DNA from: Herbiconiux ginsengi
GTDB taxonomy: Bacteria; Actinomycetota; Actinomycetes; Actinomycetales; Microbacteriaceae
Direction: 5' to 3'
NCBI RefSeq assembly: GCF_900107435.1
Contig: NZ_FNPZ01000001.1
Location: forward strand, 778,960 to 842,959
DNA length: 64,000 nt
Shown here: positions 9,444-60,963 of the stretch, piece by piece
Position numbering within the stretch: the stretch's first letter is position 1
Layout of the letters: the number at the start of each line of letters is the position of its first letter
Made by a program: the position numbers and the translations under genes
Notes under the pieces: generated by a model
Told to the model about the DNA's origin: nothing
The model's input: the letters and a program-made list of their open reading frames with translations, nothing else
Database searches by the model: none

Positions 9444-9666
9444 TCGGTGCTCCTCAGCGTGGCACCGATGCCGGTGCGGGCAGGAAATCAGGGTACCGCT
9501 TCGCACTTTCCCTCGCCCGACCCGCGGTGAGGCCGAGGCCGGAGGGTCCGACCGCAGGCCGGGCTCTCCGACCTCAGCCGAACATGTCGCCCGGCGCCGC
9601 AGTGGCGGCGGCGCCGGCAATAAGCGCGCGACTGACCGCAGGCCAGCCGCGCGCGAGAATGTACCC

Positions 9667-33473: not shown

Positions 33474-33607
33474 CGCAGCACGGCAGACCGCGAGCTGAGA
33501 CGGCCGAACCGAACCGATTGCGCAGCTGGGCGCAGCAGGGCCCGGTCGATACCCGACACCCATTGGATACCATGTCTGATGGTTCGTCGATCGGGAGGTG
33601 AGTGCGG

Positions 33608-34105
33608 ATGTCCGAGAAACTCGATTCCACGGAGCTCGCGCTCTTCGAGAGGCTGATCGATGTGGGAAAGCTCCTCGAGCGACGCGCCGACCGTGCCACA
33701 CGAGAGCACACCGGAATCAAGTACACGCAATACGAGGTGCTGATCCGATTGCGCAACGCCGGGGGCGAGATTCGCATGACGGAGCTCGCCAACAAACTCG
33801 TCAGCACTCCGAGCGCCCTGACCTATCAGGTGGCACAGCTGGAGAAGGCGTCTCTGGTGGAGCGCGTCGTCGCCCCGGGCGACGAGCGTGGAGTCCTGGC
33901 TCGCATCACCGACGCCGGCCGGCAACTCCTCCGCGACGTGTCACAGGCCCAGAACGACATGATCCGCGCTGCGACGATCGAACCCCTCACACGCAGTCAG
34001 GTCGAGGCCACCCACCGAGCCCTCGGCGCTCTACAGCTGCACCTCCGGGGCGAGGAGACCGGCGGGATCCTTCCCGACCATGCACCGGGCGGGATCGATC
34101 CCTGA
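33608..34105 (+). CDS. MarR-family transcriptional regulator
   Basis: A 165-residue winged-helix regulator. The fold is clear: IKYTQYEVLIRLRNAGGEIR, MTELANKLVSTPSALTYQVA (recognition helix), QLEKASLVERVVAPGDERG (wing), ARITDAGRQLLRDV. ATG 33608 follows GGGAGG. It precedes the VOC protein and MFS transporter genes, with a pair of AT-rich inverted sites in between (34128-34191), so it probably represses them in response to an aromatic or acidic ligand. Confidence 0.88.
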   Translation: MSEKLDSTELALFERLIDVGKLLERRADRATREHTGIKYTQYEVLIRLRNAGGEIRMTELANKLVSTPSALTYQVAQLEKASLVERVVAPGDERGVLARITDAGRQLLRDVSQAQNDMIRAATIEPLTRSQVEATHRALGALQLHLRGEETGGILPDHAPGGIDP

Positions 34106-34127
34106 TCGATCGACCTCCTCTCGAGTT

Positions 34128-34191
34128 TTACAAATTTGAAACAAATAGCGCCCTTGCTGGTAATGTGCCCGATATAACTTCGAATTTGTAA
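34128..34191 (+). promoter_or_regulatory. Paired AT-rich inverted sites upstream of the VOC-MFS genes
   Basis: TTACAAATTTGAA (34128-34140) and TTCGAATTTGTAA (34179-34191) are inverted copies matching at 12 of 13 positions, with centres 51 bases apart. Each has a near-palindromic CAAATTTG core. They sit in an unusually AT-rich island in a GC-rich genome, between marR and the VOC gene: probable MarR operators around the promoter. Confidence 0.65.
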
Positions 34192-34283
34192 TAAGTCCGA
34201 GGTTCCGGGCGACGGCGCCCTCGAGTGCTCGAGGTCGGCCACGTGCCGGAATCCCGCGACTTCCGCTGCCGTGAGGAGCATGG

Positions 34284-35024
34284 ATGATCGCACTCGACCA
34301 CATCGCCATCTGGTCCGGAAATCTCTACCGGACCACCATCGAGCTCAGCCGGCTGACCGGCATCGGCAGCGCCGACGGCGGCTACTTCCCGGGGCTGGGA
34401 CTCGGACAGAAGATCATCTCGCTCGGCGGGGGCGTGTACCTCGAGATCGAGAGCATCGTCGATCACCGGATGATCCTCGAGCGCGATCCGGTCGCGCTCG
34501 AACTCGAGCGGCAGACCGACTCCGGCGACTGCTTTGCCGGACTGTGCCTGCGCAGCGATGAACTCACCGAGATCGAAGCCTTCGCCGCGCACCGCGGCGT
34601 CGAGGTCTCGGCGGAGATCGCGGGCGGCAAAGCACTCATGGTGCCCGGCCAGAAGCGAGGCCGGGCCGCGCACGCCCCCGACTTCCTCAACTCGTGGCTG
34701 AAAGGCAAGCCGAACATCTACTACGTCGAGGGTCTCGAGAACCACTCGAGCATCCTTCCTCCTCAGCCCGGAACCGGCGACGTCGTCGGCCTCGGCGTGA
34801 CCTCGATCGAGCTCGGCGGCTCGGAGGCATCGCTGCGCTCCTGGCTCGGCGAACTCGATCCGGCCGAACTCGGTCTCGACATCCGCTACAACGGGCTCGC
34901 CGACGGGCTCTACGCCGTGGGCTTCGACTCGACAGCGGGCCCGCAGGAGATCCGCCTCCCTCCCATCACCCTTCCGGCCGCGCGCTCTCGAGCGGCGCAG
35001 ACCCTTCTCTCGGAGACCTCATGA
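34284..35024 (+). CDS. VOC-superfamily (glyoxalase-like) protein
   Basis: A 246-residue protein of the vicinal-oxygen-chelate superfamily. The first betaalphabeta-beta-beta unit is IALDHIAIWSGNLYRTTIEL with GQKIISLGGGVYLEIESIV, and the second half has GLGVTSIELGGSEASLR. The length and the ALDHI start fit the Glyoxalase_3-like group, whose members have unassigned activities. It is not obviously an extradiol dioxygenase. GAGGAG precedes ATG 34284. Its stop overlaps the MFS start (ATGA), tying it to transport of an unknown substrate. Confidence 0.78.
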   Translation: MIALDHIAIWSGNLYRTTIELSRLTGIGSADGGYFPGLGLGQKIISLGGGVYLEIESIVDHRMILERDPVALELERQTDSGDCFAGLCLRSDELTEIEAFAAHRGVEVSAEIAGGKALMVPGQKRGRAAHAPDFLNSWLKGKPNIYYVEGLENHSSILPPQPGTGDVVGLGVTSIELGGSEASLRSWLGELDPAELGLDIRYNGLADGLYAVGFDSTAGPQEIRLPPITLPAARSRAAQTLLSETS

Positions 35025-36346
35025 CCACCATCGCCACCACCCAGGCCGGCACCGATTCGGCTTCGCGCCGCCGCGTGCGGCGTGCCGCCGTCTCGGGCTT
35101 CTTCGGCAGCGCACTCGAGTACTACGACTTCCTCATCTACGGCTCCGCCTCGGCCCTCATCTTCGGCCAGCTCTTCTTCGCGGAGACGGGCGCTGCCGGC
35201 ACACTGCTCTCCATCGCGACCTTCGGCGTCGCCTACGTGGTGCGCCCGCTCGGAGCCGTGCTCTGGGGCCACATCGGTGACCGATTCGGCCGCCGGCTCG
35301 CCCTCGTGCTCACCATCGCCCTGATGGGTGTGGCGACGTTCTGCATCGGATTGCTGCCGACCTTCGCGACCATCGGCTGGGTGGCACCCGTTCTGCTGGT
35401 GCTGCTGCGACTGCTGCAGGGGCTCTCTGCGGGTGGCGAGTCGCCGGGCTCGACCTCCCTCACCGTCGAGCACGCCCCGGATCGCCATCGCGCCTGGTAC
35501 ACGAGTTTCACGATGAGCGGGATGCAGTTCGGCATCGCACTCGGCAGTCTCGTGTTCATACCGGTGGCCCTGCTGCCGGAGGAGGCGCTGTTCAGCTGGG
35601 GCTGGCGCATCCCGTTCCTCGCCAGCGGCGTTCTGACGATCATCGCCTACCTGCTCCGTCGCAAGCTCGACGAGCCCGACACCTTCACCGAGATGCAAGC
35701 AGAAGGCACCCGCGCGAAGCTTCCCATCGCGGTCCTGCTGAAGGATCACTGGCGCACGACGATCCGGGTGCTGTTCCTCAGCACCATCAACATCGTCGGC
35801 ACCATCTTCAACGTGTTCGCCCTGGCCTACGGCACGCAGAACGGCGTTCCGAGCGCCGTGATGCTCGCCGTCGTCTCATTGGGGAACCTCGTCGCCGTCG
35901 TGATGGCGCCGGTCTCCGGCCGGCTCTCCGACCGATTCGGCCGGCGCCCGCTGTTCATCATCGGATCGCTCGGGGCGAGCGTGTTCATCACCCTTCTCTT
36001 CATCGCAATCGATGCCGGCGACATCCCGATGATCTATCTCAGCGGAATCGTCGGAATCGGCGTCTTCTACTGCATCCCGATCACGGTGGGGGCGACCTGG
36101 TACCCCGAGCAGTTCCCGGCCCGGTGCCGCTACACGGGAATGGCCGTGGGGTTGATGCTCGGAATCCTGCTCGCGGGATTCGCGCCGGCGGTGGCCCAGG
36201 GGCTGGGGGCCGGCGGCACGAACTGGCTGCCCGCCATCGTGCTCTGCGGGGCGGCATCGCTGATCTCCTCCGCGGTAGCCGTGTTCGCACCCGAGACCTT
36301 CCGCGTCTCGAAGCAGCTGCTCGGCGAGCGGCGCCTCCAGGGCTGA
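35021..36346 (+). CDS. MFS transporter, metabolite:H+ symporter (MHS) family
   Basis: A 441-residue protein with 12 membrane segments. It opens RRAAVSGFFGSALEYYDFLI, typical of the MHS/ProP-ShiA group, followed by VVRPLGAVLWGHIGDRFGRR and later SDRFGRRPLFIIGSLG loop motifs. This family imports carboxylates, betaines and aromatic acids with protons. The start is ATG 35021, overlapping the VOC gene stop. Together with the upstream MarR regulator it forms a three-gene uptake unit; the substrate is not known. Confidence 0.88.
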   Translation: MTTIATTQAGTDSASRRRVRRAAVSGFFGSALEYYDFLIYGSASALIFGQLFFAETGAAGTLLSIATFGVAYVVRPLGAVLWGHIGDRFGRRLALVLTIALMGVATFCIGLLPTFATIGWVAPVLLVLLRLLQGLSAGGESPGSTSLTVEHAPDRHRAWYTSFTMSGMQFGIALGSLVFIPVALLPEEALFSWGWRIPFLASGVLTIIAYLLRRKLDEPDTFTEMQAEGTRAKLPIAVLLKDHWRTTIRVLFLSTINIVGTIFNVFALAYGTQNGVPSAVMLAVVSLGNLVAVVMAPVSGRLSDRFGRRPLFIIGSLGASVFITLLFIAIDAGDIPMIYLSGIVGIGVFYCIPITVGATWYPEQFPARCRYTGMAVGLMLGILLAGFAPAVAQGLGAGGTNWLPAIVLCGAASLISSAVAVFAPETFRVSKQLLGERRLQG

Positions 36347-36620: not shown

Positions 36621-37616
36621 CTAGGCGGCATCCTGGTGGGGTGCGTCGAGTCCGAGAAAGCCGCGCGCGTCGTGGTCGAGGCTCTCAGCGCTCAGGCCCC
36701 GCTCGATCGCGTGCACCACGGGGTCGGGGTCAGCCATGTCGAAGGGGTAGTCGCTGCCGAGCAGCACACGACCCGCACCGGCCTTCTTCGCAAGGAGGTC
36801 GAAAGCATCGGCGTCGTGCGTCACGGTGTCGAGCCAGAGCGAGCGGAAAGCCTCCTCGGGAGGCACGCCGGAACCTGCCGAGACGTCGGGGCGGGCATGC
36901 CAGGCGTGACTCCAGCGACCGAGCAGGTCGGGCGCGCAGCCGCCGCCGTGAACGAAGCAGATGCGCAATTCCGGGATGCGCTCGAGCACACCGCCGAGCA
37001 GCACCGATGCGATCGCCGTCGCCGACTCGACAGGGTTGCCGATGAGGTTGACCAGGTAGTGCTTCGCGAGCGAAGGCGACGGCAGCTGCATCGGGTGCAC
37101 GAGCACCGCGAGCCCGAGCGCGGAGGCCCGGCGCAGCACGCCCTCGAGCGGCTCCGAATCGAGCGAGCCGGCCCCGAGCAGCGGTGGGATGGCGACGCCC
37201 AGGATGCCCGGAGTGGCCGCGAGCTCCTGCAGCTGCCGGCCCGCGGCATCCGGATCGGCGAGGCTGACACAGCCGAAACCGGCGAACCATCCCTCGCCGT
37301 CGGCGACGACCTGCGTGAGTTGGGCGTTGAACGATTCGACGTAGTCGGTCGTTCCCTCCGCGGTGCCGAGCGCGAACGCGAACGGCGGTGCCGAGAGCAC
37401 CCGTGCGCCGACTCCGGCCCGCTCCATGTCGGCGCGGATGGCGCCGACATCGCTCATCAGACGGGTGTCGATCGAGAGAGGCGTGTCGCCGATGAACATC
37501 CGCCCGTCGCGGTCGGCGATTCCGCCGAACGGAGCGCCCGGCGGCAACCCGAAGAGTTCGCGCGGCAGCCAGTGGGCGTGCACGTCGATCGGACCGCGGC
37601 GCAGTTCCCAGCTCAC
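36621..37616 (-). CDS. Amidohydrolase-family decarboxylase (ACMSD-like)
   Basis: A 331-residue metal-dependent amidohydrolase of the ACMSD/resorcylate-decarboxylase group. The metal motif is IDVHAHWLP near residue 10; the later His is in CFVHGGGCAPDLLGRW, and the conserved Asp in RVLLGSDYPFDM. Members decarboxylate (semi)aldehydes or hydroxybenzoates, or hydrolyse lactones. The start is GTG 37616, overlapping the cupin stop as GTGA. It is the last gene of a five-gene catabolic operon and could act on a ring-cleavage product or remove an aromatic carboxyl. Confidence 0.83.
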   Translation of the reverse strand: MSWELRRGPIDVHAHWLPRELFGLPPGAPFGGIADRDGRMFIGDTPLSIDTRLMSDVGAIRADMERAGVGARVLSAPPFAFALGTAEGTTDYVESFNAQLTQVVADGEGWFAGFGCVSLADPDAAGRQLQELAATPGILGVAIPPLLGAGSLDSEPLEGVLRRASALGLAVLVHPMQLPSPSLAKHYLVNLIGNPVESATAIASVLLGGVLERIPELRICFVHGGGCAPDLLGRWSHAWHARPDVSAGSGVPPEEAFRSLWLDTVTHDADAFDLLAKKAGAGRVLLGSDYPFDMADPDPVVHAIERGLSAESLDHDARGFLGLDAPHQDAA

Positions 37617-38038
37617 AGCGGCAACGCGCCGTTGTCGCTGTCGAGGTGCTCGACGGTGGTGAACACCAGGTCGGTCTCGCCGACGTTCTCGATGTCGTGC
37701 AAAAGGTATTCTCCCGGTCCGAAGTGGAAGTGGCGGGTCTCCCCCGCATCGTACGCGACGTCGCGGGTGGTGCCGTCGAAGGTGTGCTGCCGGCTCGTAC
37801 CGGCGTTGACCGCCGTCCAGAAGTAGTCCAGCACGTGACGGTGCGCGTGCCAGCGCTCTCCCGGTGCGAGCCGGATCTCCCACACCCGCACGCGGTCGTT
37901 CTCGCTGAGCAGACGTGAGCCCACCGCGCCGTCGAAGGCGTGATCGGCGAACTCCTGCTTGAGTGCATCGCTCCAGCCTTCGAAATCGGTTCCGACCAAG
38001 GCGCCGGCGAGGGGCAGGTCGGCGAGGAAGTTGCTCAT
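37613..38038 (-). CDS. Small cupin protein of a catabolic operon
   Basis: A 141-residue cupin. Motif 1 is LAPGERWHAHRHVLDYFW and motif 2 GETRHFHFGPGEYLLHDIEN, with potential metal-binding His residues. It could be a small ring-cleaving or isomerising enzyme or an accessory protein; the sequence does not settle it. GGAGAA precedes ATG 38038. It lies between the FAD monooxygenase gene (49 bases away) and the amidohydrolase (overlapping GTGA). Confidence 0.75.
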   Translation of the reverse strand: MSNFLADLPLAGALVGTDFEGWSDALKQEFADHAFDGAVGSRLLSENDRVRVWEIRLAPGERWHAHRHVLDYFWTAVNAGTSRQHTFDGTTRDVAYDAGETRHFHFGPGEYLLHDIENVGETDLVFTTVEHLDSDNGALPL

Positions 38039-38087
38039 GGTGATTCTCCGTTCGTTCGGAATGGTGTCGGGGTGCGGATCGGGCGCC

Positions 38088-39323
38088 TCAGGCGACAACC
38101 GGCCGCCGGTCTTCGGGATACAGCACGCCGGGACCGTACAGCCCGAAGCGCAACGACGGGTCGCCCGGCAGCCAGGTGTTGAGGAATTGCGAACGGTCCC
38201 CCATCTCCATCACCCGGTCGAGTAGCTGACGGCTGAGTTCGAGCTGACCCGGCTCCCACGCGGTGAGTGCGGCCGGGATGTCGCCGTCGGCCGCGAGGAG
38301 CGCGTCTCGGAGGGCCCAGGCGTCGGCCGCGGCCTTCGCGGTTCCGGCGGCCGCGTGCGGGCGCGCGCTGCAAGCCGCATCGCCGATCAGGGCTGCTCGG
38401 TGCAGCGCCATTCTGTCCGACCGCACGTCGAGCACGACCTGGAGGTACGGCTCCTCGGTGGCCAGGACCACCTCGGCGGCGGCCGGCGCGAGCGTGGCGA
38501 CGGCGGTCTCGCGCATCTCGGCGACGAAGCGGTCCTGCACCTGGCCGGGGTGAAGCGACACTGCACCCACGAACCCGTTCTTTCCGGTGAGGAGTTCGGT
38601 GAGCTCGGGGCCTTTGGGCACGTTTCGGTACCAGACGTAGTTCATCAGCTGGTGCTCCGCATCCACCCCCTCTTCGCCCGGGATCGGGTAGAGGGTGATG
38701 TGCGAGTTCGGCGCCACCGAGTAGGTGATCGAGTCGCCCATCATCCGGCGCGTGACCGGGCTCAGGTCGCGGAGCGGCACCGTGCCGCGCCATCCCACGT
38801 AGCCGGAGTACGACGGCACGGCATCCGGGTCGAAGCGCTCACGCGCCGGCGAGTTGATGCCGTCGGCGAACACCACGAGATCGGCGGTCTCGGTGCTGCC
38901 GTCGGCGAAGCGCACGGTCGCGCGTTCGCCGGAGTCGTCGAAGCCGCAGGCGTACGCCCCCAGGTGGTAGTGCTCGGTGCCGAAGTCGTGGAGCAGCGCC
39001 CGGTAGAAGGTGCCCCACGAGGTGTAGCCCCAACGTCGTTCGTCTCGCGAGACGACGCGATTCTCGCGGTCGAGGTACTGCACCCACGAGGTCGAGGTCG
39101 AGAGGCCTGTGGGGTCGGTGTCACTGCGCTCGACGAACCAGCGAAGGGTGTCGGGTTGCAGCACGATTCCGCTGCCGCGCCCGTGCAACGGGGTGGCGGT
39201 GCGCTCGTAGACGTCGACCTCGAAGCCCAGGTCCTTCAGCACCAGGGCCGCCGTGAGGCCGCCGATCGAGCCGCCGATCACCAGGGCGCGCGAGCCTCGG
39301 TAGCGGGAGGAGGAGTCGTTCAT
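38088..39323 (-). CDS. FAD-dependent aromatic monooxygenase (2,6-dihydroxypyridine 3-monooxygenase-like)
   Basis: A 411-residue class A flavoprotein hydroxylase. The FAD motif is RALVIGGSIGGLTAALVLKD; the DG motif is VVFADGINSPAR; the GD motif is ALIGDAACSARPHAAAGTAK. The N-terminal PLHGRGSGIVLQPDTLRWF and the ending (WEPGQLELSRQLLDRVM, then WLPGDPSLRFGLYGPG) resemble 2,6-dihydroxypyridine hydroxylases of nicotine degradation more than PobA or salicylate hydroxylases. The substrate is probably a hydroxylated pyridine or phenol. ATG 39323 is 3 bases from the transporter stop. Confidence 0.85.
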   Translation of the reverse strand: MNDSSSRYRGSRALVIGGSIGGLTAALVLKDLGFEVDVYERTATPLHGRGSGIVLQPDTLRWFVERSDTDPTGLSTSTSWVQYLDRENRVVSRDERRWGYTSWGTFYRALLHDFGTEHYHLGAYACGFDDSGERATVRFADGSTETADLVVFADGINSPARERFDPDAVPSYSGYVGWRGTVPLRDLSPVTRRMMGDSITYSVAPNSHITLYPIPGEEGVDAEHQLMNYVWYRNVPKGPELTELLTGKNGFVGAVSLHPGQVQDRFVAEMRETAVATLAPAAAEVVLATEEPYLQVVLDVRSDRMALHRAALIGDAACSARPHAAAGTAKAAADAWALRDALLAADGDIPAALTAWEPGQLELSRQLLDRVMEMGDRSQFLNTWLPGDPSLRFGLYGPGVLYPEDRRPVVA

Positions 39324-39326
39324 GGA

Positions 39327-40697
39327 TCAGGCCTTTCCGGTGGATGCGGCGAGGGATTCGTCGGTCGGCAGCGCCCGGCCGTTGGTTTCGCGGGCGAAGG
39401 CGACGCCGACGAGACCGATCAGGCCGATCGCCGAGATCACCGCGGTGGCGATGCCGAGGTCGCCGCCGAACGCCGAGGCCGCGATCACGCCGGCCACGAG
39501 CGGCCCGGCGGCCGTGATGAAGCGGCCGACGCTGTTGCAGAACGCGATCGCCGAGGCACGGACGCTGGTCGGGAAGACCTCGGGGCTGTAGATGAACGCC
39601 CCCGAGAGCGAGCCGAACAGCGCGAAGCCGAGCACCGGCATCACGATCATGTAGGTGGTGAAGTCGCGTTGGAAGGGGAAGAGGAATGCGATCGCCACCG
39701 CCGCGACGCCGAAGGTGATGAGAAAGGTGGGGCGCCGGCCGATCTTGTCGGCGATGAAGCCCCAGGCCGCGTAGCCCACGATCCCGCCGGCGTTGAACAG
39801 GATGGAGGCGAGGGCCACGCGTGAGGCGATGAGATCCGGTGCCCAGTCCTCGGCGGCGCCCATCTGGCGGATGATCTGCGGGTACCAGGTGGTCACGCTC
39901 CAGAAGGCGATCAGGGCCCCCGTCGCGATCGCGGTGCAGACCAGGGTGGGTCGCAGCAGGGGCTTGCGGAACAGGCGCTTCAACACGAAGTCGTCGTGGG
40001 CGAGGGCTCGGCCCTCCCGCTTGCGTTCCCGGCGGGCGCGGATGGCCTCGGCCGACTCCGGGGGCTCCTTCACGAACCGGCGGATGAACCAGACCAGTAT
40101 GGCCGGGATGACCGCGAGGAACATCATGAACCGCCAACCCAAACCGCCGGCGAGCGCGAACACGATCGCGGCCACGAAGAATCCCGCCGCATAGCCCGAC
40201 ATCATCACACCGCCCGCGCGGGCCCGGTACCGGTTCTTCCAGCTCTCGGCGATGAGAGCGGCCCCCACGGGCGCCTCGACGCCCGAGCCGAGGCCGGCGA
40301 TGAAGCGCAGGATGCCGAGCTGCCACCAGGTGTCCGCGAACGCGGCGGCCGCTGTGAACACGGCGTAGGTCAGGATGCCGATGGCCAAGATGCGGGTGCG
40401 CCCGAGATAGTCGGCGAGCACGCCGAACACGATGCCGCCGAGCGCCCAGCCACCGAGGAACAGGGCGACGGTCAGGCCGCCGTAGAGCCCGATCGCGGCC
40501 GGGCTCACCTCGATGCCGCTGTGCGGAAGCAATTCGGTCATGGCCGGCCCGAGCACGAGGGTGTAGAGGCTGCCGGCGAAGCCGTCGAGTCCCCAGCCGA
40601 GCATGGTGCCGGTGAGCACGAGCCACTGCGCCTTCGTGATCTCCTGGCGCCAACCCGAACGGAGTTCGTTGCGCGTGTTACGAGTCTGCGTCACCAT
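39327..40697 (-). CDS. MFS transporter, aromatic acid:H+ symporter-like
   Basis: A 456-residue, 12-segment transporter. The loop motif GVLADYLGRTRILAIG, the acidic TM1 region (LTGTMLGWGLDGFAGSLYTL) and WGFIADKIGRRPTFLITFG fit the AAHS/sugar-porter-like group that imports aromatic acids such as 4-hydroxybenzoate (PcaK/BenK). It lies between the FAD monooxygenase and aldehyde dehydrogenase genes and presumably brings in the operon's substrate. The start is ATG 40697, with AAGGAG a few bases upstream. Confidence 0.88.
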   Translation of the reverse strand: MVTQTRNTRNELRSGWRQEITKAQWLVLTGTMLGWGLDGFAGSLYTLVLGPAMTELLPHSGIEVSPAAIGLYGGLTVALFLGGWALGGIVFGVLADYLGRTRILAIGILTYAVFTAAAAFADTWWQLGILRFIAGLGSGVEAPVGAALIAESWKNRYRARAGGVMMSGYAAGFFVAAIVFALAGGLGWRFMMFLAVIPAILVWFIRRFVKEPPESAEAIRARRERKREGRALAHDDFVLKRLFRKPLLRPTLVCTAIATGALIAFWSVTTWYPQIIRQMGAAEDWAPDLIASRVALASILFNAGGIVGYAAWGFIADKIGRRPTFLITFGVAAVAIAFLFPFQRDFTTYMIVMPVLGFALFGSLSGAFIYSPEVFPTSVRASAIAFCNSVGRFITAAGPLVAGVIAASAFGGDLGIATAVISAIGLIGLVGVAFARETNGRALPTDESLAASTGKA

Positions 40698-40733
40698 CGA
40701 CGTACTCTCCTTCGTTTAGGTGGTGCGGGTTTC

Positions 40734-42281
40734 TCAGTTGAGGCGTTCCGTGCCCGCGCCGCCGTACCAGTCGACGGAGTCGGGCGCGATGCGGGTGACC
40801 ACGGTCTTCAGCCAGGAGAACTCGTCGAACGACTCGACCCCGGCATCCTTCCCGATGCCCGACTCCTTGATTCCGCCCCAGGGGAGTGAGGGCTCGAGGC
40901 GGTGGTGGTCGTTGATCCAGACCATTCCGGCCTTGATGCGGTCGGCGACGCGATGAGCGCGGGCGACATCCCGTGTCCAGACGCCGGCGCCGAGGCCGTA
41001 GGGGTTGTCATTGGCCATCGCGATGCCGTGCTCCTCGTCGTCGAAGGGGATGACGACGGCGACGGGGCCGAAGATCTCCTCGCGGGCGACGCGCATGTCC
41101 ATGCTCGCGTCGGCGAGCACGGTGGGCTCGTAGAAGTAGCCACCGCGGAGGGCGTCGCTGCCTGCGGCATCCGGCGTGCCCGTCGCGGCGTCGGAGCCGA
41201 ACTCGGGCACGCCGCCGCCGGCCGTGACCGTTGCACCCTCCTCGCGACCTGACTCCACCAGGGCCGAGACCTTGTCGCGTTGCCGGGCGCTGATCAGCGG
41301 GCCCATCTGCGTCTCGGGATGCGTCGGGTCGCCGACCCGGATCGCCTTCGCCCGCGCGGTGAGGTGTTCGACGAATTCGTCGTAGATGCCGCGCTGCACG
41401 AGGAAGCGAGAGCCGGCCACGCAGGACTGGCCCGCGGCGACGAAGGCGGAGAACGCGGCACCCTCGGCCGCTTCCTTGGCCTCGACGTCGTCGAAGACGA
41501 TCACGGGTGTCTTGCCGCCGAGCTCGGCCGTCATGCGGGCGAATCGGCGGGCCGTGGCGACGGCGGCCGATCGGCCGGTTTCCGTGCCGCCGGTGAGGGT
41601 GATCTTCGCGATGTCGGGGTGCTCGGTGAGGCGCCGACCGGCCTCGGCGGCACCGGTGACGACCTGGACGACGCCATCCGGAACCCCGGCCTTCGCGAGG
41701 ATCGGCAGGAGCGCGAGCGTGGTGAGCGGCGTGAGTTCGGAGGGTTTCACGACCACGACGTTGCCGTTCGCCAACGCCGCGGAGAGGCTCCGGGCGAGGA
41801 TGAGCATCGGGTGATTGAACGGGGTGATGATGCCGCAGACGCCCAGCGGGGCACGGCGCTGGTAGGTGAGGTAGGGGCCGTCGGAAGGCAGCACCGCGGT
41901 GCGTTGGGCGGCGAGGAGGCCGGCGTTGTAGCGGAACCATTCCGGCACCCGGGACAGCTGGGCGCGGGTCTCGGTGACCGGGCGGCCGTTGTTGAGGGCC
42001 TCGAGGCGATAGAGCTCCTCGGTCGAGGCCTCGATCTCGTCGGCGATCCGGAGCAGGATGCGCGAGCGCTCGCTCGCGTGCAGGGCCGGCCATGGTCCGT
42101 TCTCGAAAGCCTCGACGGCGGTGGCGACCGCGCGGTCGACGTCTGCGGCCGAATGCTCCGGCACGGTCTGGATGACGAGCCCGGTCGACGGGTTGAGGAT
42201 CTCGCGGGTGGCGGATTCCTGGGATCCTGCGACATCAGGCGCCTGGTCGGCGGCCGGGGTCCGGACGGCGGTGTCGGTCAT
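40734..42281 (-). CDS. Aldehyde dehydrogenase
   Basis: A 515-residue NAD(P)-dependent aldehyde dehydrogenase. The general-base Glu is in TAELGGKTPVIVFDD and the nucleophilic Cys in FVAAGQSCVAGSRF; NHPMLILARSLSAALANGN and the GGTETGRSAA cofactor segment are present. It resembles the betaine/hydroxymuconic-semialdehyde dehydrogenase branch. GAGGAGC precedes ATG 42281. As first gene of the operon it may oxidise the semialdehyde left after ring cleavage or an aromatic aldehyde. The PucR regulator gene is divergent. Confidence 0.9.
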   Translation of the reverse strand: MTDTAVRTPAADQAPDVAGSQESATREILNPSTGLVIQTVPEHSAADVDRAVATAVEAFENGPWPALHASERSRILLRIADEIEASTEELYRLEALNNGRPVTETRAQLSRVPEWFRYNAGLLAAQRTAVLPSDGPYLTYQRRAPLGVCGIITPFNHPMLILARSLSAALANGNVVVVKPSELTPLTTLALLPILAKAGVPDGVVQVVTGAAEAGRRLTEHPDIAKITLTGGTETGRSAAVATARRFARMTAELGGKTPVIVFDDVEAKEAAEGAAFSAFVAAGQSCVAGSRFLVQRGIYDEFVEHLTARAKAIRVGDPTHPETQMGPLISARQRDKVSALVESGREEGATVTAGGGVPEFGSDAATGTPDAAGSDALRGGYFYEPTVLADASMDMRVAREEIFGPVAVVIPFDDEEHGIAMANDNPYGLGAGVWTRDVARAHRVADRIKAGMVWINDHHRLEPSLPWGGIKESGIGKDAGVESFDEFSWLKTVVTRIAPDSVDWYGGAGTERLN

Positions 42282-42402
42282 TTCGTGCTCCTCAGGTCTC
42301 GTGCATGATCCCGAGAGACGCTCTGCAAGGCCGCAGCGCCCCACTCAGGTTTCAACAGTGTGCCAAGCCCACTTCCATCCGACAATGTTCAAGATCACAC
42401 AC

Positions 42403-42431
42403 TTGACATGCATCCATGTGCGTGCTGACAT
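42403..42431 (+). promoter_or_regulatory. Leaderless promoter of the PucR-type regulator gene
   Basis: TTGACA (42403-42408), a 17-base spacer and TGACAT (42426-42431) end 6 bases before GTG 42438, so transcription should begin at the start codon. A perfect ACATG-CATC-CATGT palindrome (42406-42419) overlaps the -35 and spacer, where a repressor or the regulator itself could bind. Confidence 0.7.
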
Positions 42432-42437
42432 TGCCGC

Positions 42438-44132
42438 GTGGATTCCGAACTCGTGACATGGCTGAGCCGACTCCGCGAGCTGAGTGGGGTGGCCATCGAC
42501 GGGCGATCGGTCGACGAGGCCTTGACCCTCGTCGCCGAGACCGCACGCGAACTCCTCGGCTTCGATTTCTGCGGCCTGCTGGTTCCGAACGCGCAGGAGA
42601 CTGCGCTGGTGATCAAAGGGTGGAGCGGGCTCTCCCGTGAGTACGTCGACGGGGTGAACCGCTCGAGCCCTGTCACGGTGGGCTCGACGGCTCCGTCGAG
42701 CCGTGCGTATTCCTCGGGCCAGTCGGTCACCGTGGCCGACATCCAGGTCGAGCGCGGATTCGAGCCATGGGGCGGAGTCGCGCAGGAACAGGGTTACCGG
42801 TCGATGATCAGCGTGCCCCTGGTCGGGCCGGAGCGGGTGCTCGGCACCTTGAACGGATACCATTCCCGCACCCACGTCTACAGCGCTCAGGAGGTCGAGC
42901 GCCTGAGCTTGCTGGCCAATCACGCCGCAGCTGCGCTGACCAGCGCTTCACTCGTCGATGAGCTCCGTGGAGTGAACGCGTCGCTGCTTCAGCAGCGCGA
43001 CCTGCTGGCCAAGTCGGAGGAGATCCACCGGCGGCTGCTCCGGGTGTCTCTCGAGTCGGGAGGGATAGACGGAGTCGTGCGCACGCTCGCCGATCTCATC
43101 GGCAGGCCGGTCGCACTCGACGACCCGACCGGCCGGCCGCTCTCCGCAGGCCCCGGCCTCCCTCCGGACGTCGTCGGACTCGAGTTTCCGGTGACCCTGG
43201 GGAACGAGGAGGTCGGCAGGCTCCGAATCGCCGACGCGGAACACGGCCTCGACCCCATCGACGCGCGCGCGGTCGATCACGCGCGCGTCGTCATCGCGCT
43301 CGAGGTGCTGCGCATCCGCGCCGCCCTGGAGGCCGAGCACCGCATCCAGGGCGAAGTCCTCACCGATGTCCTGCTGTTCGGGATGACGGAACGGTCCCTG
43401 CGCCGGGCGGCCGCTCTGGGCTACGACCTCGATGCGCTGCGGGTGGCGACCGTTGCACGTGTTTCCGGACTCGACAGCGCGGTCGACACCTCGGCTGCGC
43501 AGACTCGCCGAACAGTGGCTGCGCTCTCGGCTGCTGCCGCGATCGCGCTGCCCTCGGCGGGTTCGGGGGGTGTGCTCATCCGGCCATTGGTGGCGGCGGT
43601 GCAAGGCCTGATCGTCGCGGTGTGGCCGGTATCCGCACGGGAGTCCGCGGGTGCGGCGATGCTGCACTCGTTGCGTTCCGCCTTTCCCACCGAGCACGTG
43701 CTCGTCGCGACATCGGGAACCAGGGATCGACCTCTCCCCGAGGCGTTCCGCGTGGCCAAGGGGGCGTTGGCGCTCGCCGGTTCGGCTGGTCGCAGCGACG
43801 AATGCGTCACTCCTGCGGGCCTCGGGATCGTAGGCGTGCTGCTGCAGTCCGACCAGCCCACGGTGCTCCGCGAGTTCGCTCTCGACACCCTCGGTCCTGT
43901 GATGGACTACGACGAAGCACGGGGCTCTGACCTGCTCGGCACCCTTCGCACCTATATCGACCACGCGCAGGATCGGATCGCGACGGCGGGAGAACTGCGC
44001 GTGCACCCCAACACGGTGAATCAGCGAATACGACGGATCGAATCCCTCACCGGAGCAGATCTCCACCTTTCGGCGGACGTCGTCTCCTTCGCGTCGGCGT
44101 TCGCGGTCTGGGACGTCGTGCAGACGCTCTAG
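42438..44132 (+). CDS. GAF-domain PucR/CdaR-family regulator
   Basis: A 564-residue regulator. Residues about 20-170 form a GAF domain (ALTLVAETARELLGFDFCGL, QGYRSMISVPLVGPERVLGT). A linker coiled coil follows. Residues about 180-470 are the PucR-type middle region, and the C-terminus is the PucR helix-turn-helix (LGTLRTYIDHAQDRIATAGE, RVHPNTVNQRIRRIESLTG). GAF-PucR proteins commonly activate adjacent catabolic genes in response to an aromatic ligand; the divergent aldehyde dehydrogenase operon is the evident target. The gene ends 1 base from the convergent thiolase stop. Confidence 0.9.
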   Translation: MDSELVTWLSRLRELSGVAIDGRSVDEALTLVAETARELLGFDFCGLLVPNAQETALVIKGWSGLSREYVDGVNRSSPVTVGSTAPSSRAYSSGQSVTVADIQVERGFEPWGGVAQEQGYRSMISVPLVGPERVLGTLNGYHSRTHVYSAQEVERLSLLANHAAAALTSASLVDELRGVNASLLQQRDLLAKSEEIHRRLLRVSLESGGIDGVVRTLADLIGRPVALDDPTGRPLSAGPGLPPDVVGLEFPVTLGNEEVGRLRIADAEHGLDPIDARAVDHARVVIALEVLRIRAALEAEHRIQGEVLTDVLLFGMTERSLRRAAALGYDLDALRVATVARVSGLDSAVDTSAAQTRRTVAALSAAAAIALPSAGSGGVLIRPLVAAVQGLIVAVWPVSARESAGAAMLHSLRSAFPTEHVLVATSGTRDRPLPEAFRVAKGALALAGSAGRSDECVTPAGLGIVGVLLQSDQPTVLREFALDTLGPVMDYDEARGSDLLGTLRTYIDHAQDRIATAGELRVHPNTVNQRIRRIESLTGADLHLSADVVSFASAFAVWDVVQTL

Positions 44133-54339: not shown

Positions 54340-56469
54340 TTAGGGGCCCTCGCCGACGTGCACCGCCTCGAACGTGATGGCTGATTGTGGATTGAGCAAG
54401 GGCATGTGCAGACCGACCGTGGTGAGAAACCGGCCGCTCGCAATGATGCCCTCGACCATCCACGAGGGAGGGGCCTGCTCCGCCCTCTGCTGGACATCGT
54501 CGAGCAGCATCCGCACTCGATACCACCATTCGTCGCGTAACCCCGCGAGCCTCAGAGGCGTCGGGCCATCCGAGGTCGCCAGCTGCAGTGCCACGTATTG
54601 GTAGATTGCCCTGTCCTTCTCCGCGGACACGATTCCGTGGAAGAGGTGGTTCGCATCCGGACCGTCGTCGCGGATGAGAACGCCGGAATGAAGCAGTGAG
54701 CGGCTGGCTTTGTGAAGACGAATGGCACCGGAGAGCACGGCCTCCTCGTCGGCACTCATCCCTCGTATGTCCCATTCGATCCCCATGTGCTGCATCCAGC
54801 TGGCGCTGATCCGGAAGGAGAGGTCAGTGACTCGGCCTGTGGTGTGAGACCGAGGTCCCCCTACGTGGCTTCCGATACGTTCGGGCGGCAGGAGTTGTGA
54901 CGCCCACCGTTGAATGGGATGACGTTCGACGGGATCGTTGGTGTCGGATATCCACACCCGGTCGGTGCGACTGCCCAGACCGAGGTCGACGCGGCCTCCT
55001 CCGGACGAGCAGTTCTCGATCTCCACCGTGGGATGCGCTTCCCGGATGGCGTCGATCAGCCGATATGCGGCGAGCACCTGGGCATGGGAGCGTGGAATTC
55101 CGCCGCGGCCGATCTCGTTGCTGTCGCGGTTGTAGTCCCATTTGAGATAGTCGATGCGGTGATCCGCCAACAAGCGGTGCAGCTGGTCGTAGACGTACCG
55201 CCACGCCTTTTCGTTGGTGAGATCGAGCAGTTGTTGATGCCGCCAGGGCAGCGGAAGGTCCTCGCCGAGGCGACTGATCCACTCCGGGTGAGCACGTGCA
55301 GCGTCGGAGTCGGGGCTGATCATCTCGGGCTCCACCCAGAGCCCGAATTGCATGCCGAGGTCGTGCACACGGTCGATGAGAGGAGCGAGCCCTCCCGCCC
55401 AGACGATCGGGTCGACCGACCAGTCCCCGAGACCTGCGCGGTCGTTCCGTCGTCCCTTGTACCACCCGTCGTCGAGCACGAACCGTTCCACGCCCATCCG
55501 CGAGCCGGCCGCAGCAAGATCGATCAGCGCGTCGAGGTCATGGTCGAAGTAGATGGCTTCCCAACTGTTGAGGGTGACGGGTCGAGGTGTGACCGCGGTG
55601 CGGTTGGACCGGTCCCATCGATGAAACTGTGCCGCATTCGCGTCCAAGCCCATCCTGCTGTAGGACGCGAAGAGCCAAGGAGACGTGTAACTTCCGCCCT
55701 CCTCGAGAACGACGTCTCCTTGCTCGAGAACCTCACCGGCACCGATCACGAAAGCTCCGGAGGGCAGTTTTTCGATGTAGTGCTCGGAGTTCCCGCTCCA
55801 CGCGAGGTGGATGTTCCAGATCTCCCCGTTTCGGAATCCGAAGCCCTCCGTTCCCGCCGCGAAGACCAGCGGGGCGTCGTGTCCCGTTCGCCCGTGATGT
55901 GTCGGGCGGGACCACTTGCCGAATCCGATGGTCCGGCGCTGCGGTTGCACTTCTCGGCACCATCGGCCTGTGCTGTCGAGGATCTCCTTCGCTCGATCGG
56001 GCAAGGGGAGGGTTGCGAACAGGTGGTGGACGGCGAGGTGCCGAGTGCTGGTGTTCGTGAGGGTGTGACGGAGGCGAGCCAGACCGGTGTCCTCGATGTG
56101 GATCTCGGTGGCCAGGTCGATCTCATTGCGGTCGTCATGTTGCCTGAGCACTGCGGTGGCGTGCTCGTCGACCACGATGTCGCGGATGGCGAACGATGCG
56201 TGGAGCTCATTGCCCTCTCGCCCGATGCGCAGTCCTGGCGTTGCCAGCCATCCCGCTGCGGCCTCCGGCACCAGGTGCTGAGGTACGGGTGCGTTGAATG
56301 ACGACTGCGGTACCGCGCCCTCGATCTGCGCCGGATCGGGGAGCTGTTCGCCGAGGTAGGCACCCCAATGCACGAACTCCGGCTTACGGCTCGAGGTTCG
56401 GAGCAGAATACTCACCTCCCCGTTGTGGATGTGGGCATACGGCGGCACGACCACAGCCGGTTCAGTCAT
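54340..56469 (-). CDS. Alpha-galactosidase, GH36 family
   Basis: A 709-residue glycoside hydrolase. The GH36 nucleophile is Asp445 in YLKWDYNRD and the acid/base is Asp509 in RVWISDTND; VLDDGW (331-336) and NCSSGGGRVDLGLG (486-499) are also family hallmarks. It has an N-terminal beta-sandwich (1-290), then a (beta/alpha)8 barrel. No signal peptide is seen, so it acts on imported alpha-galactosides such as melibiose or raffinose fragments. ATG 56469 overlaps the aldolase stop by 8 bases; it is the last gene of the operon. Confidence 0.95.
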   Translation of the reverse strand: MTEPAVVVPPYAHIHNGEVSILLRTSSRKPEFVHWGAYLGEQLPDPAQIEGAVPQSSFNAPVPQHLVPEAAAGWLATPGLRIGREGNELHASFAIRDIVVDEHATAVLRQHDDRNEIDLATEIHIEDTGLARLRHTLTNTSTRHLAVHHLFATLPLPDRAKEILDSTGRWCREVQPQRRTIGFGKWSRPTHHGRTGHDAPLVFAAGTEGFGFRNGEIWNIHLAWSGNSEHYIEKLPSGAFVIGAGEVLEQGDVVLEEGGSYTSPWLFASYSRMGLDANAAQFHRWDRSNRTAVTPRPVTLNSWEAIYFDHDLDALIDLAAAGSRMGVERFVLDDGWYKGRRNDRAGLGDWSVDPIVWAGGLAPLIDRVHDLGMQFGLWVEPEMISPDSDAARAHPEWISRLGEDLPLPWRHQQLLDLTNEKAWRYVYDQLHRLLADHRIDYLKWDYNRDSNEIGRGGIPRSHAQVLAAYRLIDAIREAHPTVEIENCSSGGGRVDLGLGSRTDRVWISDTNDPVERHPIQRWASQLLPPERIGSHVGGPRSHTTGRVTDLSFRISASWMQHMGIEWDIRGMSADEEAVLSGAIRLHKASRSLLHSGVLIRDDGPDANHLFHGIVSAEKDRAIYQYVALQLATSDGPTPLRLAGLRDEWWYRVRMLLDDVQQRAEQAPPSWMVEGIIASGRFLTTVGLHMPLLNPQSAITFEAVHVGEGP

Positions 56470-57088
56470 CAATCGTCTCGACAAGGTCGAAGAGGGCGTC
56501 GGCCGCGCGCTGTGATCGCAAGGCGGACCCGATTCCGACGGCGGCGGCCCCTGCGGCGAGGAAGTCCTTCACGTTCGACGTGTCGATTCCGCCGGTGGCG
56601 ATGAAAGTCGCGGCAGGGAACGGCCCCCGCATTTCTCGGAACCAACTCGGGGAAAGGCTGGAAGCGGGAAAGGCCTTCACGTGATCGCACCCCGCCAGCA
56701 AGGCCTTCTGCACCTCCGTCGCGGTTCCGACCCCGGGCAGATGAGGAACTCCTGCTTCCGCACTCGCCTCCACGACAGCAAGATCGAATCCCGGAGCCAC
56801 GGTGAAGTCAGCACCCGCGTCGATCACCCGTTCGAGGAGCTCGAGACGGGTGACGGTGCCGACCCCGACGGGTTCTCCCCTGTCAAGTCCGCGGAGTCTC
56901 ACGGCCTGGAAAGTCTCGAACGAGGCTTCATCCTGCACAGGTACTTCGACGACTCCGATCCCCCTGTCCCAGACACGGTGGGCGACGTCCAGAGCGACCG
57001 ACAGATCCATCCCACGGAGGATGGCGATGACCGGACGCCCCCTCAGAACTGCAGAGAAGTCGTTTCGCGATGTCGACACCACGATCAC
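56462..57088 (-). CDS. dgoA: KDPG/KDPGal aldolase
   Basis: A 208-residue class I aldolase that splits 2-keto-3-deoxy-6-phospho(galact/glu)onate to pyruvate and glyceraldehyde-3-phosphate. The Schiff-base Lys is in GCDHVKAFPASSLSP; the Glu/phosphate-binding parts are in GVVEVPVQDEA and GVGTVTRLELLERV, and FIATGGIDTSNVKDFLAAGA ends the barrel. GTG 57088 overlaps the kinase stop (GTGA). Neighbouring DgoD-like dehydratase favours the galacto form; KDPG itself may also be accepted. Confidence 0.88.
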   Translation of the reverse strand: MIVVSTSRNDFSAVLRGRPVIAILRGMDLSVALDVAHRVWDRGIGVVEVPVQDEASFETFQAVRLRGLDRGEPVGVGTVTRLELLERVIDAGADFTVAPGFDLAVVEASAEAGVPHLPGVGTATEVQKALLAGCDHVKAFPASSLSPSWFREMRGPFPAATFIATGGIDTSNVKDFLAAGAAAVGIGSALRSQRAADALFDLVETIDD

Positions 57089-58044
57089 ACCTCGATCCGG
57101 TCGGATTCACCGACGGGAGAGAGGGCTCCGGCGAAGCCGTCCGGCATCGCACCGACATCTCCGGTGCTCACCAACGCTGAAGCGGCGAGGCGGTGGCCGT
57201 GTCGCAGGCTCGACGGAACGCCCGCATCGGTCAGCAGCCCATGCAGGAAGCCGGCTGCGAACGCATCGCCGGCGCCCACGGGCTCGATCACATCCACGAC
57301 GAGCGCCGGTTCATCCGTCTGCGCGCCGCCGTGGAAAGCGGTCGCACGCACCGGGCCGTCCTTGACCACGAGGATGTCGGGGCGGGGAACCCGATCTCGT
57401 ATGGAAGCGGGAGTCTCGGTGCCCCAGATCTCCTGTGCTTCGTCGAGCCCGACGAAGACCACGTCAGCCGTGTCGGCGAGGGCGCGCAGGATCGGGCCGG
57501 CGATTCCGGGCTCCCACAGCGCCGGCCGGTAGTTCACGTCGAAGGAGACTCGGGCGCCGGCGCGGTGAGCTCTGTCGATGGTCGTTTCGATGAGCTCGTG
57601 ACAGCCCGTCGAGAGTGCGGGCGTGATCCCGCTCACGTGCACCAGGTCGTCTCCGGAGAAGGCGAAGTCATCGAGAAAGGCCCCGGTCATGCGCGATGCC
57701 GCAGACCCGCTCCGGTAATAGTGCACCGAGGTTGCCCCGCCGAGCTGCGCGTCTTTGAAGTACACCGCGCTCGGGGCGGTCGAGTCCCGCACGACCAAGT
57801 CGGTGCGAACGCCCGCCGCGCGGATGTCGGAGACGATGCGTTCACCGATCGGATCGTCACCGACGGCGCTGAGCCAGAAGACGGTGTGACCGAGCCTCGA
57901 CAGATAGCTGGCGACGTTCGATTCGGCTCCGGCGACGCTCAGGCTCGCACGGGTCGCGTTCGCGAGTCGCCCGATCGGCGAGGGCGTGATCTGCAACATC
58001 GACTCACCGATCGTCACGACCCGCCGTCTCGTGTCAGCGCGCAT
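57085..58044 (-). CDS. PfkB-family sugar kinase (2-keto-3-deoxy-sugar acid kinase)
   Basis: A 319-residue ribokinase-fold kinase. The N-terminal motif is VVTIGESMLQITPS, the substrate segment GAESNVASYLSRLGH, and the catalytic motif VIEPVGAGDAFAAGFLHGLL with the base Asp. It resembles KdgK, which phosphorylates KDG/KDGal at C6. Between dgoD-like and aldolase genes this is the expected DgoK step, although classical DgoK is of another fold, so the symbol is left open. ATG 58044 overlaps the sialidase-like gene stop by 11 bases. Confidence 0.87.
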   Translation of the reverse strand: MRADTRRRVVTIGESMLQITPSPIGRLANATRASLSVAGAESNVASYLSRLGHTVFWLSAVGDDPIGERIVSDIRAAGVRTDLVVRDSTAPSAVYFKDAQLGGATSVHYYRSGSAASRMTGAFLDDFAFSGDDLVHVSGITPALSTGCHELIETTIDRAHRAGARVSFDVNYRPALWEPGIAGPILRALADTADVVFVGLDEAQEIWGTETPASIRDRVPRPDILVVKDGPVRATAFHGGAQTDEPALVVDVIEPVGAGDAFAAGFLHGLLTDAGVPSSLRHGHRLAASALVSTGDVGAMPDGFAGALSPVGESDRIEV

Positions 58045-59824: not shown

Positions 59825-60963
59825 TCTGCAAAGCTCCCGTCGGCGTGTCGCCAGATGTCGTTGTGCCAGTTGTGAGGTGCGGCCGCGGCGCGACGGACCT
59901 CTTTCTCGTCGATCTCGATCCCGAGCCCCGGCCCGAGCGGTCGTTCGATGTATCCGTCGTTCGCGGTGAAGACGGATCGGTCGAGCAGGTAGTCGAGCAG
60001 GTCGGTCTGCACGTTGTAATGGATGCCGAGGCTCTGTTCCTGGATGAGGAAATTGGGTGTGGCGAAGTCCACCTGGAGGCACGAGGCCAGCGCGATCGGT
60101 CCGAGGGGACAGTGCGGCGCGAGCGACACCCCGTAGGTCTCGGCCGCCGACGCGATCCGCCGCACCTCGGAGATCCCTCCGGCGTGCGAGAGGTCGGGCT
60201 GGGCGACGGCGATTCCGCTCGCGAGCACCTCGCGGAACTCCCACCGCGAGTAGAGCCGCTCACCCGTGGCGATCGGGATCGGTGTCGCGCGGGCGATCTC
60301 GCCCAGCTGGAAGGACAGCTCCGGCACCACGGGTTCTTCGACGAAGAGGGGGAAGTACGGCTCCAGGAGCGGGAGAGCACGGCGAGCCATCGCGGGCGAA
60401 TAGCGGCCGTGGAAATCGATGGCGATGTCACGCGAGTCGCCGAGAACACCTCGCACTTCGGCGACCCGGTCGACGAGATGCGCGAGGCTGGCCGGCACGT
60501 CGATGGCCGTCAGCTCCTCCGACCCGTTCATCTTCACAGCCGTGAGGCCGGCGGCGACCTGGCGCTCGGCGTCGGCCGCGAGCTCGCTCGGACGGTCGCC
60601 GCCGATCCAGCCGTAGATCCGCACCCGGTCACGAACCGCTCCGCCGAGCAGATCGTAGATCGGCACGCCCAGCCGCTTTCCGGCGATGTCCCACAGCGCC
60701 TGATCGATGCCCGCCACCGCGCTCGCGAACACCGGTCCACCGCGGTAGAAGCCGCCTTTGGTGAGCACCTGCCAGGTGTCTTCGATCCTCGACGGATCCG
60801 ATCCGATGAGGTAGTCGCTCAGCTCGGCGACCGCGGTGGCGACGGTAGCCGCTCGGCCTTCGACGACCGGCTCTCCCCACCCGGTTATGCCGTCGTCGGT
60901 GGTGATGGCCACGAAGAGCCAGCGCGGTGCGACTTGAAAGGTCTCTACTCGTTCGATTCTCAC
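59818..60963 (-). CDS. dgoD: D-galactonate dehydratase-like enolase-superfamily enzyme
   Basis: A 381-residue mandelate-racemase-group dehydratase. Typical DgoD features are GWGEPVVEGRAATVATAV, GFYRGGPVFASAVAGIDQAL, the metal ligands in IAIDFHGRYSP (Asp), LFVEEPVVPE (Glu) and ATGERLYSRWEFR (Glu), and the catalytic His in SLAPHCPLGPIALA. Length and pattern match D-galactonate dehydratase (galactonate to KDGal). ATG 60963 follows the beta-helix gene by 22 bases. It is the key evidence for a De Ley-Doudoroff-type pathway here. Confidence 0.9.
   Translation of the reverse strand: MRIERVETFQVAPRWLFVAITTDDGITGWGEPVVEGRAATVATAVAELSDYLIGSDPSRIEDTWQVLTKGGFYRGGPVFASAVAGIDQALWDIAGKRLGVPIYDLLGGAVRDRVRIYGWIGGDRPSELAADAERQVAAGLTAVKMNGSEELTAIDVPASLAHLVDRVAEVRGVLGDSRDIAIDFHGRYSPAMARRALPLLEPYFPLFVEEPVVPELSFQLGEIARATPIPIATGERLYSRWEFREVLASGIAVAQPDLSHAGGISEVRRIASAAETYGVSLAPHCPLGPIALASCLQVDFATPNFLIQEQSLGIHYNVQTDLLDYLLDRSVFTANDGYIERPLGPGLGIEIDEKEVRRAAAAPHNWHNDIWRHADGSFAEW

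Follow-up and report, generated by a model that had tools for sequence, protein, structure and literature searches.

Introduction

The branch of kynurenine and 2-nitrobenzoate catabolism that runs through 3-hydroxyanthranilate 3,4-dioxygenase (HAO), ACMSD and AMSDH uses a cupin, an ACMSD-like amidohydrolase and a semialdehyde-type aldehyde dehydrogenase in series. The same three enzyme types are encoded in an operon of Herbiconiux ginsengi that we analyzed here. It is located in a 64,000-nucleotide stretch of contig NZ_FNPZ01000001.1 (positions 778,960 to 842,959 of the forward strand), referred to below as the window. The operon encodes an aldehyde dehydrogenase (ALDH), an MFS importer, an FAD monooxygenase (FMO), a cupin of 141 residues and an ACMSD-like amidohydrolase (AH); a gene for a GAF-PucR type regulator is divergent from it. 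Unlike the HAO-ACMSD-AMSDH branch, it has a cupin with no HAO match and an AH without the PFPLG motif, and no deaminase was recognized in it.

Three other systems are related to parts of this gene set. The FMO is of the same type as 2,6-dihydroxypyridine 3-hydroxylase (DHPH) of the Paenarthrobacter nicotine pathway, but the identity is low (36.6% to the plasmid dhpH product). The DHPH route uses pseudooxynicotine hydrolase and, to our knowledge, has no cupin step. The solved protein nearest to the cupin by both fold and sequence is AzcA, in which the three histidines align and the HxHxxDY motif is shared; however, the two are 30% identical, and the AzcA-like loci of Streptomyces (L184-L186) contain no FMO match. 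Compounds of the type named in the AzcA entry title are plausible precursors of 5-azacytosine. The title, from which alone the function is known here, describes a triazine-forming protein with the product 6-amino-4-oxo-4,5-dihydro-1,3,5-triazine-2-carb... (title partial; PDB 9u8n/9u8o), and no paper on AzcA, or on this precursor role, was found in the literature searched. The third system is the kpi 4-hydroxypyridine pathway of Arthrobacter sp. IN13, where an FMO hydroxylates a hydroxypyridine and an amidohydrolase-fold protein acts next (PMC7356986). There KpiA is nearest to quinolone hydroxylase, KpiB is an alpha/beta hydrolase, and KpiC belongs to amidohydrolase-1 and is itself the dioxygenase. 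The text mentions no 'cupin', 'aldehyde dehydrogenase' or 'PucR'. A kpi-like 4-hydroxypyridine route was rejected for the window, because AH matches PF04909 and not the amidohydrolase-1 family PF01979.

Results and discussion

Conservation of the operon

We tentatively interpret the gene set, at somewhat short of an even chance, as a peripheral catabolic operon that is induced by its substrate, a hydroxylated acid with an N-heteroaromatic ring of the pyridine, pyrimidine or purine type. Its conservation was analyzed in 82 loci with FMO relatives, consisting of the best 80 of 130 genome matches and two Rhodococcus plasmids. The 80 genome loci were fetched because they bear FMO, so the counts are conditional on FMO, and related species are counted separately. 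Genes in the related loci were called with a crude GC3 script and some loci were rechecked by tblastn; where loci lack annotation, names such as MoxR-like, SARP-like and ABC type were assigned by eye.

All six genes (PucR, ALDH, MFS, FMO, cupin and AH) are present, anywhere in the locus, in 35 of the 82 loci, suggesting that their association is beyond chance. This is consistent with the original prediction of a coherent, PucR-linked peripheral catabolic operon with an unassigned substrate. AH is found in 41 loci, always together with the cupin. These 41 loci also contain a PucR relative (37 loci), an OYE ene-reductase (26), a VOC relative (13) and a second MFS (9). The VOC relatives are 65-88% identical in nine loci and 34% in four more, and the second-MFS relatives are 61-95% identical. 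AH and OYE are on the opposite strand in L018 and L024. Carriers were found in Nocardia, Mycolicibacterium, Rhodococcus, Arthrobacter, Streptomyces, Kitasatospora, Amycolatopsis, Saccharopolyspora and Herbiconiux. Among the operon proteins compared in AH-bearing loci, the cupin is the most conserved, with a median identity to the window of 80% (range 75-90), followed by ALDH with 72% (68-84), FMO with 69% (59-88), MFS with 68% (63-89) and AH with 58% (52-88).

A clade of 44 rows in the FMO tree (support 99/90) includes 40 from AH operons. Its members come from several families and from both plasmids, intermixed, which fits horizontal transfer. Within Microbacteriaceae, 6 of 299 genomes have a strong cupin match (E <= 2e-65), including the window genome itself, and the cupin occurs in three of the seven searched genomes of the genus. 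FMO is inside the short locus in five of these six genomes; the sixth (G152, locus L156) has none in 18 kb. A literature search, with most subscription journals beyond its coverage, found no characterized pathway or paper with this gene set. Several actinobacterial families share the set, both chromosomally and on plasmids, and rhizobia have related versions. With no matching pathway found, this points to a natural compound of unknown bacterial fate.

Enzymes and transporters

The FMO scores 458.6 bits against the NCBIfam cut-off of 333 for the PRK07236 subfamily. Its best PDB match is 2vou, a 2,6-dihydroxypyridine hydroxylase (E 7e-73). Both results agree with its earlier assignment as a DHPH-like monooxygenase.

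The cupin matches no Pfam family at E <= 0.001, and hence not the HAO family; its label is based on PDB and fold matches. The solved structure closest to its AF2 model (pLDDT 90.2) is AzcA 9u8o, with Z 14.8 and a root-mean-square deviation of 1.3 over 95 residues. The next structures are 3lag (Z 12.0) and 2fqp (Z 11.8), and the remaining rows are at 8.5 or below. With a profile built from 18 members of the cupin family, AzcA is matched at E 3e-17, ahead of oxalate decarboxylases at 3e-10. Ring opening, suggested earlier as a possible role of the cupin, may still apply; the title of this nearest structural relative names a triazine-forming protein and no ring-cleaving dioxygenase. H66, H68 and H114 are invariant in two alignments of chosen rows (18 and 25 rows; alignment A2 covers 24 of the 47 cupin loci) and align with histidines in AzcA, so that the two proteins have both the fold and the three-His site in common. 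Highly conserved, without a Pfam match and with one functional lead in AzcA, the cupin offers chemistry that is directly testable. Two cupins are also named in a paper on an isoflavone cluster (PMC11069340).

Cupins 42-45% identical to the AzcA stretch were observed in Streptomyces at L184 9893-10366, L185 9363-9962 and L186 9813-10505. They stand in a small cluster whose other products, named by eye, are an MFS of exporter type, a SARP-like regulator and several short proteins that are conserved. From its gene content, this cluster looks biosynthetic.

The earlier assignment of AH as ACMSD-like also held. Among PDB sequences it is matched best by ACMSD (E about 1e-37), and Amidohydro_2 (PF04909) is its sole family match at E <= 0.001. 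It also matches uracil-5-carboxylate decarboxylase (E 7e-11). AH was aligned in 22 chosen rows (alignment A3), covering 19 of 39 AH genome loci and two of four alphaproteobacterial loci. H174, H223, D289 and R234 are invariant across all rows, including those of Agrobacterium and Bosea. These residues align with the metal-binding and catalytic residues of ACMSD. The N-terminal HxH is HAH or HNH in the three rows covering that stretch. All 22 rows contain PFDM, whereas PFPLG follows the last metal ligand in the ACMSD PDB sequences. We read AH as an ACMSD-like lyase or hydrolase that appears to form its own subfamily.

ALDH falls under the cut-offs of 25 NCBIfam models, among the matches listed. 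It is about equally near to gamma-hydroxymuconic semialdehyde dehydrogenase (393.6 bits) and to an unassigned ALDH (394.4 bits), and is also near to HpaE. The MFS protein had been described as an AAHS-like importer. Its MFS_1 family membership was upheld, but the AAHS label is weak, as the TIGR00895 score of 180.6 bits compares with a cut-off of 418.55. A model of the VOC protein (pLDDT 77) shows a two-module VOC fold similar to that of HPPD (Z 11.7), a likeness from which no function follows. Most operon OYEs are 58-73% identical to the Rhodococcus OYE used as the query, and those of L044, L046, L047 and L049 are 48-49% identical. The best OYE match in the window genome, at 51%, is probably not the operon enzyme, since it is on another contig and most operon OYEs are at 58-73%.

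FMO and cupin in other gene clusters

The cupin is present in 49 of the 82 FMO loci, and in 47 of these 49 it is at most 350 bp from FMO. Matches to the cupin were found in 12 of 396 drawn Actinomycetota genomes. Of the 11 cupin loci other than our own, 7 have FMO inside the short locus, and in L151 it is found at a distance of 1.9 kb; the wider regions of L146, L154 and L155 contain no FMO. Two distant actinobacterial genomes (L150 and L153) carry FMO, the cupin, ALDH (54-58%) and an AH relative (34-38% identical to the Agrobacterium AH). L149, L151 and L152 contain an ALDH relative.

AH, ALDH, FMO and the cupin also occur together on plasmids of Bosea, Agrobacterium, Rhizobium and Phyllobacterium, there with other transporters, including a branched-chain-type ABC importer in the three annotated alphaproteobacterial plasmids. 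VOC and OYE relatives are added in Agrobacterium, Rhizobium and Phyllobacterium, and an alkene reductase in Bosea. The Bosea and Agrobacterium proteins are 54-55% (cupin), 53% (ALDH), 34-38% (FMO) and 33-34% (AH) identical to those of the window. The Agrobacterium VOC protein is 36% identical to that of the window, and its OYE is 43% identical to the Rhodococcus OYE.

Additional neighbors of FMO or cupin relatives bear on the substrate class. Large subunits of molybdenum hydroxylases are found in 19 of the 80 FMO genome loci, compared to about 0.9-1.3 expected from an estimated density (320 matches, with genome sizes partly extrapolated). RidA relatives are located in cupin loci L087, L089, L093, L150 and L152, a count for which no background rate was computed. 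Two Methylobacterium plasmids (L092 4307-16159 and L127 4256-16072) contain a molybdenum dehydrogenase, cupin, FMO, uraD, two uraH, MFS, racemase and NCS1 nucleobase symporter genes. FMO and the cupin are neighbors there, and this FMO belongs to the PRK07236 NCBIfam subfamily (463 bits, cut-off 333). Judged by gene content, the Methylobacterium clusters are probably purine-type, with a DHPH-like FMO apparently standing where a urate-oxidizing enzyme is expected. Together, the molybdenum hydroxylases, RidA and the uraD/uraH/NCS1 genes favor an N-heterocycle, which we regard as somewhat better supported as the substrate class.

Several related arrangements were observed in these loci. L093-L095, L098, L099, L128, L130-L132 and L154-L156 hold cupin family members with no FMO match in the fetched stretch; the cupins of L094 and L095 have genes for an alkene reductase, a glyoxalase and an SDR nearby. 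L089 5629-6918 encodes a protein of 429 aa that matches RidA three times and adjoins AH, PucR, FMO and the cupin. FMO relatives about 56-60% identical occur with Cox-type molybdenum hydroxylases and PucR in L051, L055, L059, L060, L062, L065, L069 and L073. L051 also has the cupin, and some of this group have a MoxR-like ATPase, identified by eye. The group may represent a sister pathway. At L036 6243-8291, a Rieske-like N-terminus, seen by eye, precedes a complete pyruvate-oxidase-type thiamine pyrophosphate (TPP) enzyme, which adjoins a second Rieske-type protein (8183-9835). The proteins f38 and f39 near L036, L053 and L064 were considered as hydantoinases and rejected: f38 is a TPP enzyme with a Rieske-like N-terminus, and f39 looks Rieske-type by eye.

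Proposed pathway and alternatives

The enzyme families, linkage and conservation are most economically accommodated by an order of uptake, FMO, cupin, AH and ALDH, with VOC and OYE probably last. In such a pathway, MFS would import the acid. The DHPH-type FMO, a class assigned by homology, would add a hydroxyl beside an existing ring hydroxyl. The three-His cupin, given its linkage to FMO, may act directly on the FMO product and open or rearrange the ring. The cupin product would be decarboxylated or hydrolyzed by AH in a metal-dependent reaction, as expected from its family, and the released aldehyde would be oxidized by ALDH. The VOC protein, along with the OYE ene-reductase in many other hosts, may end the chain.

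A further idea, which we consider possible but doubtful, is that FMO together with the small HxHxxDY cupin makes up a portable cassette of two enzymes that hydroxylates and then opens or rearranges N-heteroaromatic rings. It would be reused here, in the purine-linked Methylobacterium clusters and, as far as the cupin is concerned, in AzcA triazine biosynthesis. If so, the cupin family would constitute a new enzyme class that opens or rearranges rings. Loci with the cupin and without FMO slightly lower the odds of such a cassette, and the lack of an FMO match in L184-L186 weakens the idea for the AzcA-like branch.

A number of observations weigh against an N-heterocycle pathway built on FMO and the cupin. 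The cupin is absent from 33 of the 82 FMO loci. On plasmids, the cupin matches 52 records; 15 loci were opened, and only 6 of these have an FMO match. The other nine (L093, L094, L095, L098, L099, L128, L130, L131 and L132) have none. The L156 cupin, from the same family as the window and 69% identical, also lacks FMO in the 18 kb. In L133, an AH (50%) adjoins a molybdenum hydroxylase and an FMO relative, without the cupin. The 19 molybdenum hydroxylase loci fall into few clades, making their excess less independent than apparent, and such enzymes are absent beside the window operon and most of its copies. The Mycolicibacterium molybdenum enzyme is nearest to a periplasmic aldehyde oxidoreductase (PaoC-like) and would fit carbocyclic aldehydes. 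For the Methylobacterium FMO, identity is no higher than about 41%. Carbocyclic or 2-oxo acid chemistry would also suit the TPP enzymes found in L036 and L151. Finally, the logic of the HAO-ACMSD-AMSDH route would fit a carbocyclic amino-hydroxy acid as well.

The last point leads to an alternative, a carbocyclic meta-cleavage route, that we judge unlikely but that has several features in its favor. FMO would form an ortho-dihydroxy or amino-hydroxy benzoate, the cupin would open its ring as HAO does, AH would decarboxylate the product, and ALDH would oxidize a muconate semialdehyde, with the final product entering central aromatic catabolism. The order of steps is that of the HAO-ACMSD-AMSDH route. 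ACMSD is the closest to AH among solved sequences, ALDH is near both gamma-hydroxymuconic semialdehyde dehydrogenase and HpaE, and MFS is distantly AAHS-like. However, the cupin matches neither HAO nor any other Pfam family at E <= 0.001, PFDM replaces PFPLG in AH, and the relatives show no linkage to pca genes.

In H. ginsengi the operon stands between two pca blocks, and its position in the beta-ketoadipate region had led to the earlier suggestion that its product may feed that route. We searched for pca genes in 114 related loci with about 10 kb on each side (some shorter) and a threshold of at least 70 bits. No pobA, pcaGH, pcaB or pcaC was found in any of them. Thiolase or CoA-transferase relatives (33-64% identity) are present in 5 of the 114 loci (thiolase in L038, L044, L053 and L064; CoA-transferase in L038 and L066), and a weak pcaD-like hydrolase in one (L071). 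Two genomes of the genus also separate them: in G155, pobA, pcaI and the operon each have a contig of their own, and in G250 the operon is not on the contig that carries pcaI. A distance of about 2.9 Mb lies between the operon and pobA/pcaI in G026, which belongs to another genus. The pca linkage is thus not conserved in relatives, and the suggestion based on position was dropped.

In a second, quite improbable alternative, the substrate is purine-type. FMO would hydroxylate an 8-oxopurine or urate-like compound, the cupin would rearrange it to a triazine carboxylate, and AH would decarboxylate the latter. The 1,3,5-triazine-2-carboxylate-type product in the AzcA title, the uraD/uraH and NCS1 genes beside FMO and the cupin in Methylobacterium, and the AH match to uracil-5-carboxylate decarboxylase are in line with such chemistry. 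It leaves no place for ALDH, OYE and VOC, though, and it leans on an AzcA function taken from a title; the AzcA-like Streptomyces loci, moreover, show no FMO match. It is very improbable that the set serves to detoxify or tailor a natural product instead of supporting growth: tetracycline destructases and antibiotic hydroxylases belong to the FMO superfamily, and the Streptomyces AzcA-like cupins adjoin an exporter-like MFS and a SARP-like regulator, but importer-type transporters, ALDH, an ene-reductase and a PucR-type regulator occur here in one set, and the alphaproteobacterial versions have uptake systems.

Gene organization and regulation

The features of the operon and its surroundings are listed in Table 1. 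The five minus-strand genes span 36621-42281. ALDH, MFS, FMO and the cupin are separated by 36, 3 and 49 bp, and the cupin and AH overlap by 4 bp (GTGA). Coordinates, gaps and domain calls all agree with the predicted arrangement of five co-directional, tightly coupled genes and a divergent GAF-PucR regulator. The predicted borders proved too narrow, since MarR, VOC and the second MFS at 33602-36346 are part of the same set. VOC and MFS (34284-36346) are assigned to it because nine loci have counterparts, 61-95% identical to them, within the operon or next to it.

Table 1. Positions of the operon genes, associated genes and candidate operator in the window
Feature	Position	Strand	Properties
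GAF-PucR type regulator	42438-44132	+	564 aa; divergent from operon; Pfam GAF_2, GGDEF_2, HTH_30
Putative operator dyad ATGTCAAG-N8-CTTGAACAT	42385-42409	-	PucR-ALDH divergent gap; lead only
Aldehyde dehydrogenase (ALDH)	40734-42281	-	515 aa; Aldedh E 7e-161
MFS importer	39327-40697	-	456 aa; MFS_1; TIGR00895 180.6 bits
FAD monooxygenase (FMO), PRK07236 subfamily, DHPH-like	38088-39323	-	411 aa
Cupin, HxHxxDY type, AzcA-related	37613-38038	-	141 aa
ACMSD-like amidohydrolase-2 (AH)	36621-37616	-	331 aa; GTG start overlaps cupin stop
Second MFS, shikimate/metabolite:H+ type	35021-36346	+	441 aa; part of conserved set
VOC protein, Glyoxalase_3	34284-35024	+	246 aa; part of conserved set
MarR regulator ahead of VOC-MFS	33602-34105	+	MarR, VOC, MFS together in L011, L042

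The GAF-PucR protein is likely the activator of the operon, judging from its divergent orientation and its conservation. With up to three mismatches, the dyad pattern has two sites in the window compared to 0.6 expected; the pattern was written from 42385-42409 itself, which makes the perfect match there a given. GACAT/ATGTC half-sites number 66 in 36 divergent gaps, whereas 200 mononucleotide shuffles gave a mean of 11.6 and no more than 23. As the choice of half-site followed a look at the gaps, and the 36 gaps are related, this result is a lead and not a test.

The left flank contains matches to pcaC, pcaD, pcaB and pcaH on the minus strand, some of them under equivalog cut-offs. Its plus strand carries an IclR-like gene (read by eye) and pobA, followed by MarR, VOC and the second MFS. 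The right flank has pcaF-, pcaJ- and pcaI-type genes on the minus strand. An Rfam scan of the window found no family at its gathering score. Farther away, at 54340-60963, open reading frames read by eye form a row of alpha-galactosidase, aldolase, sugar kinase, sialidase-like and enolase-superfamily genes, which is probably an ordinary sugar-acid cluster.

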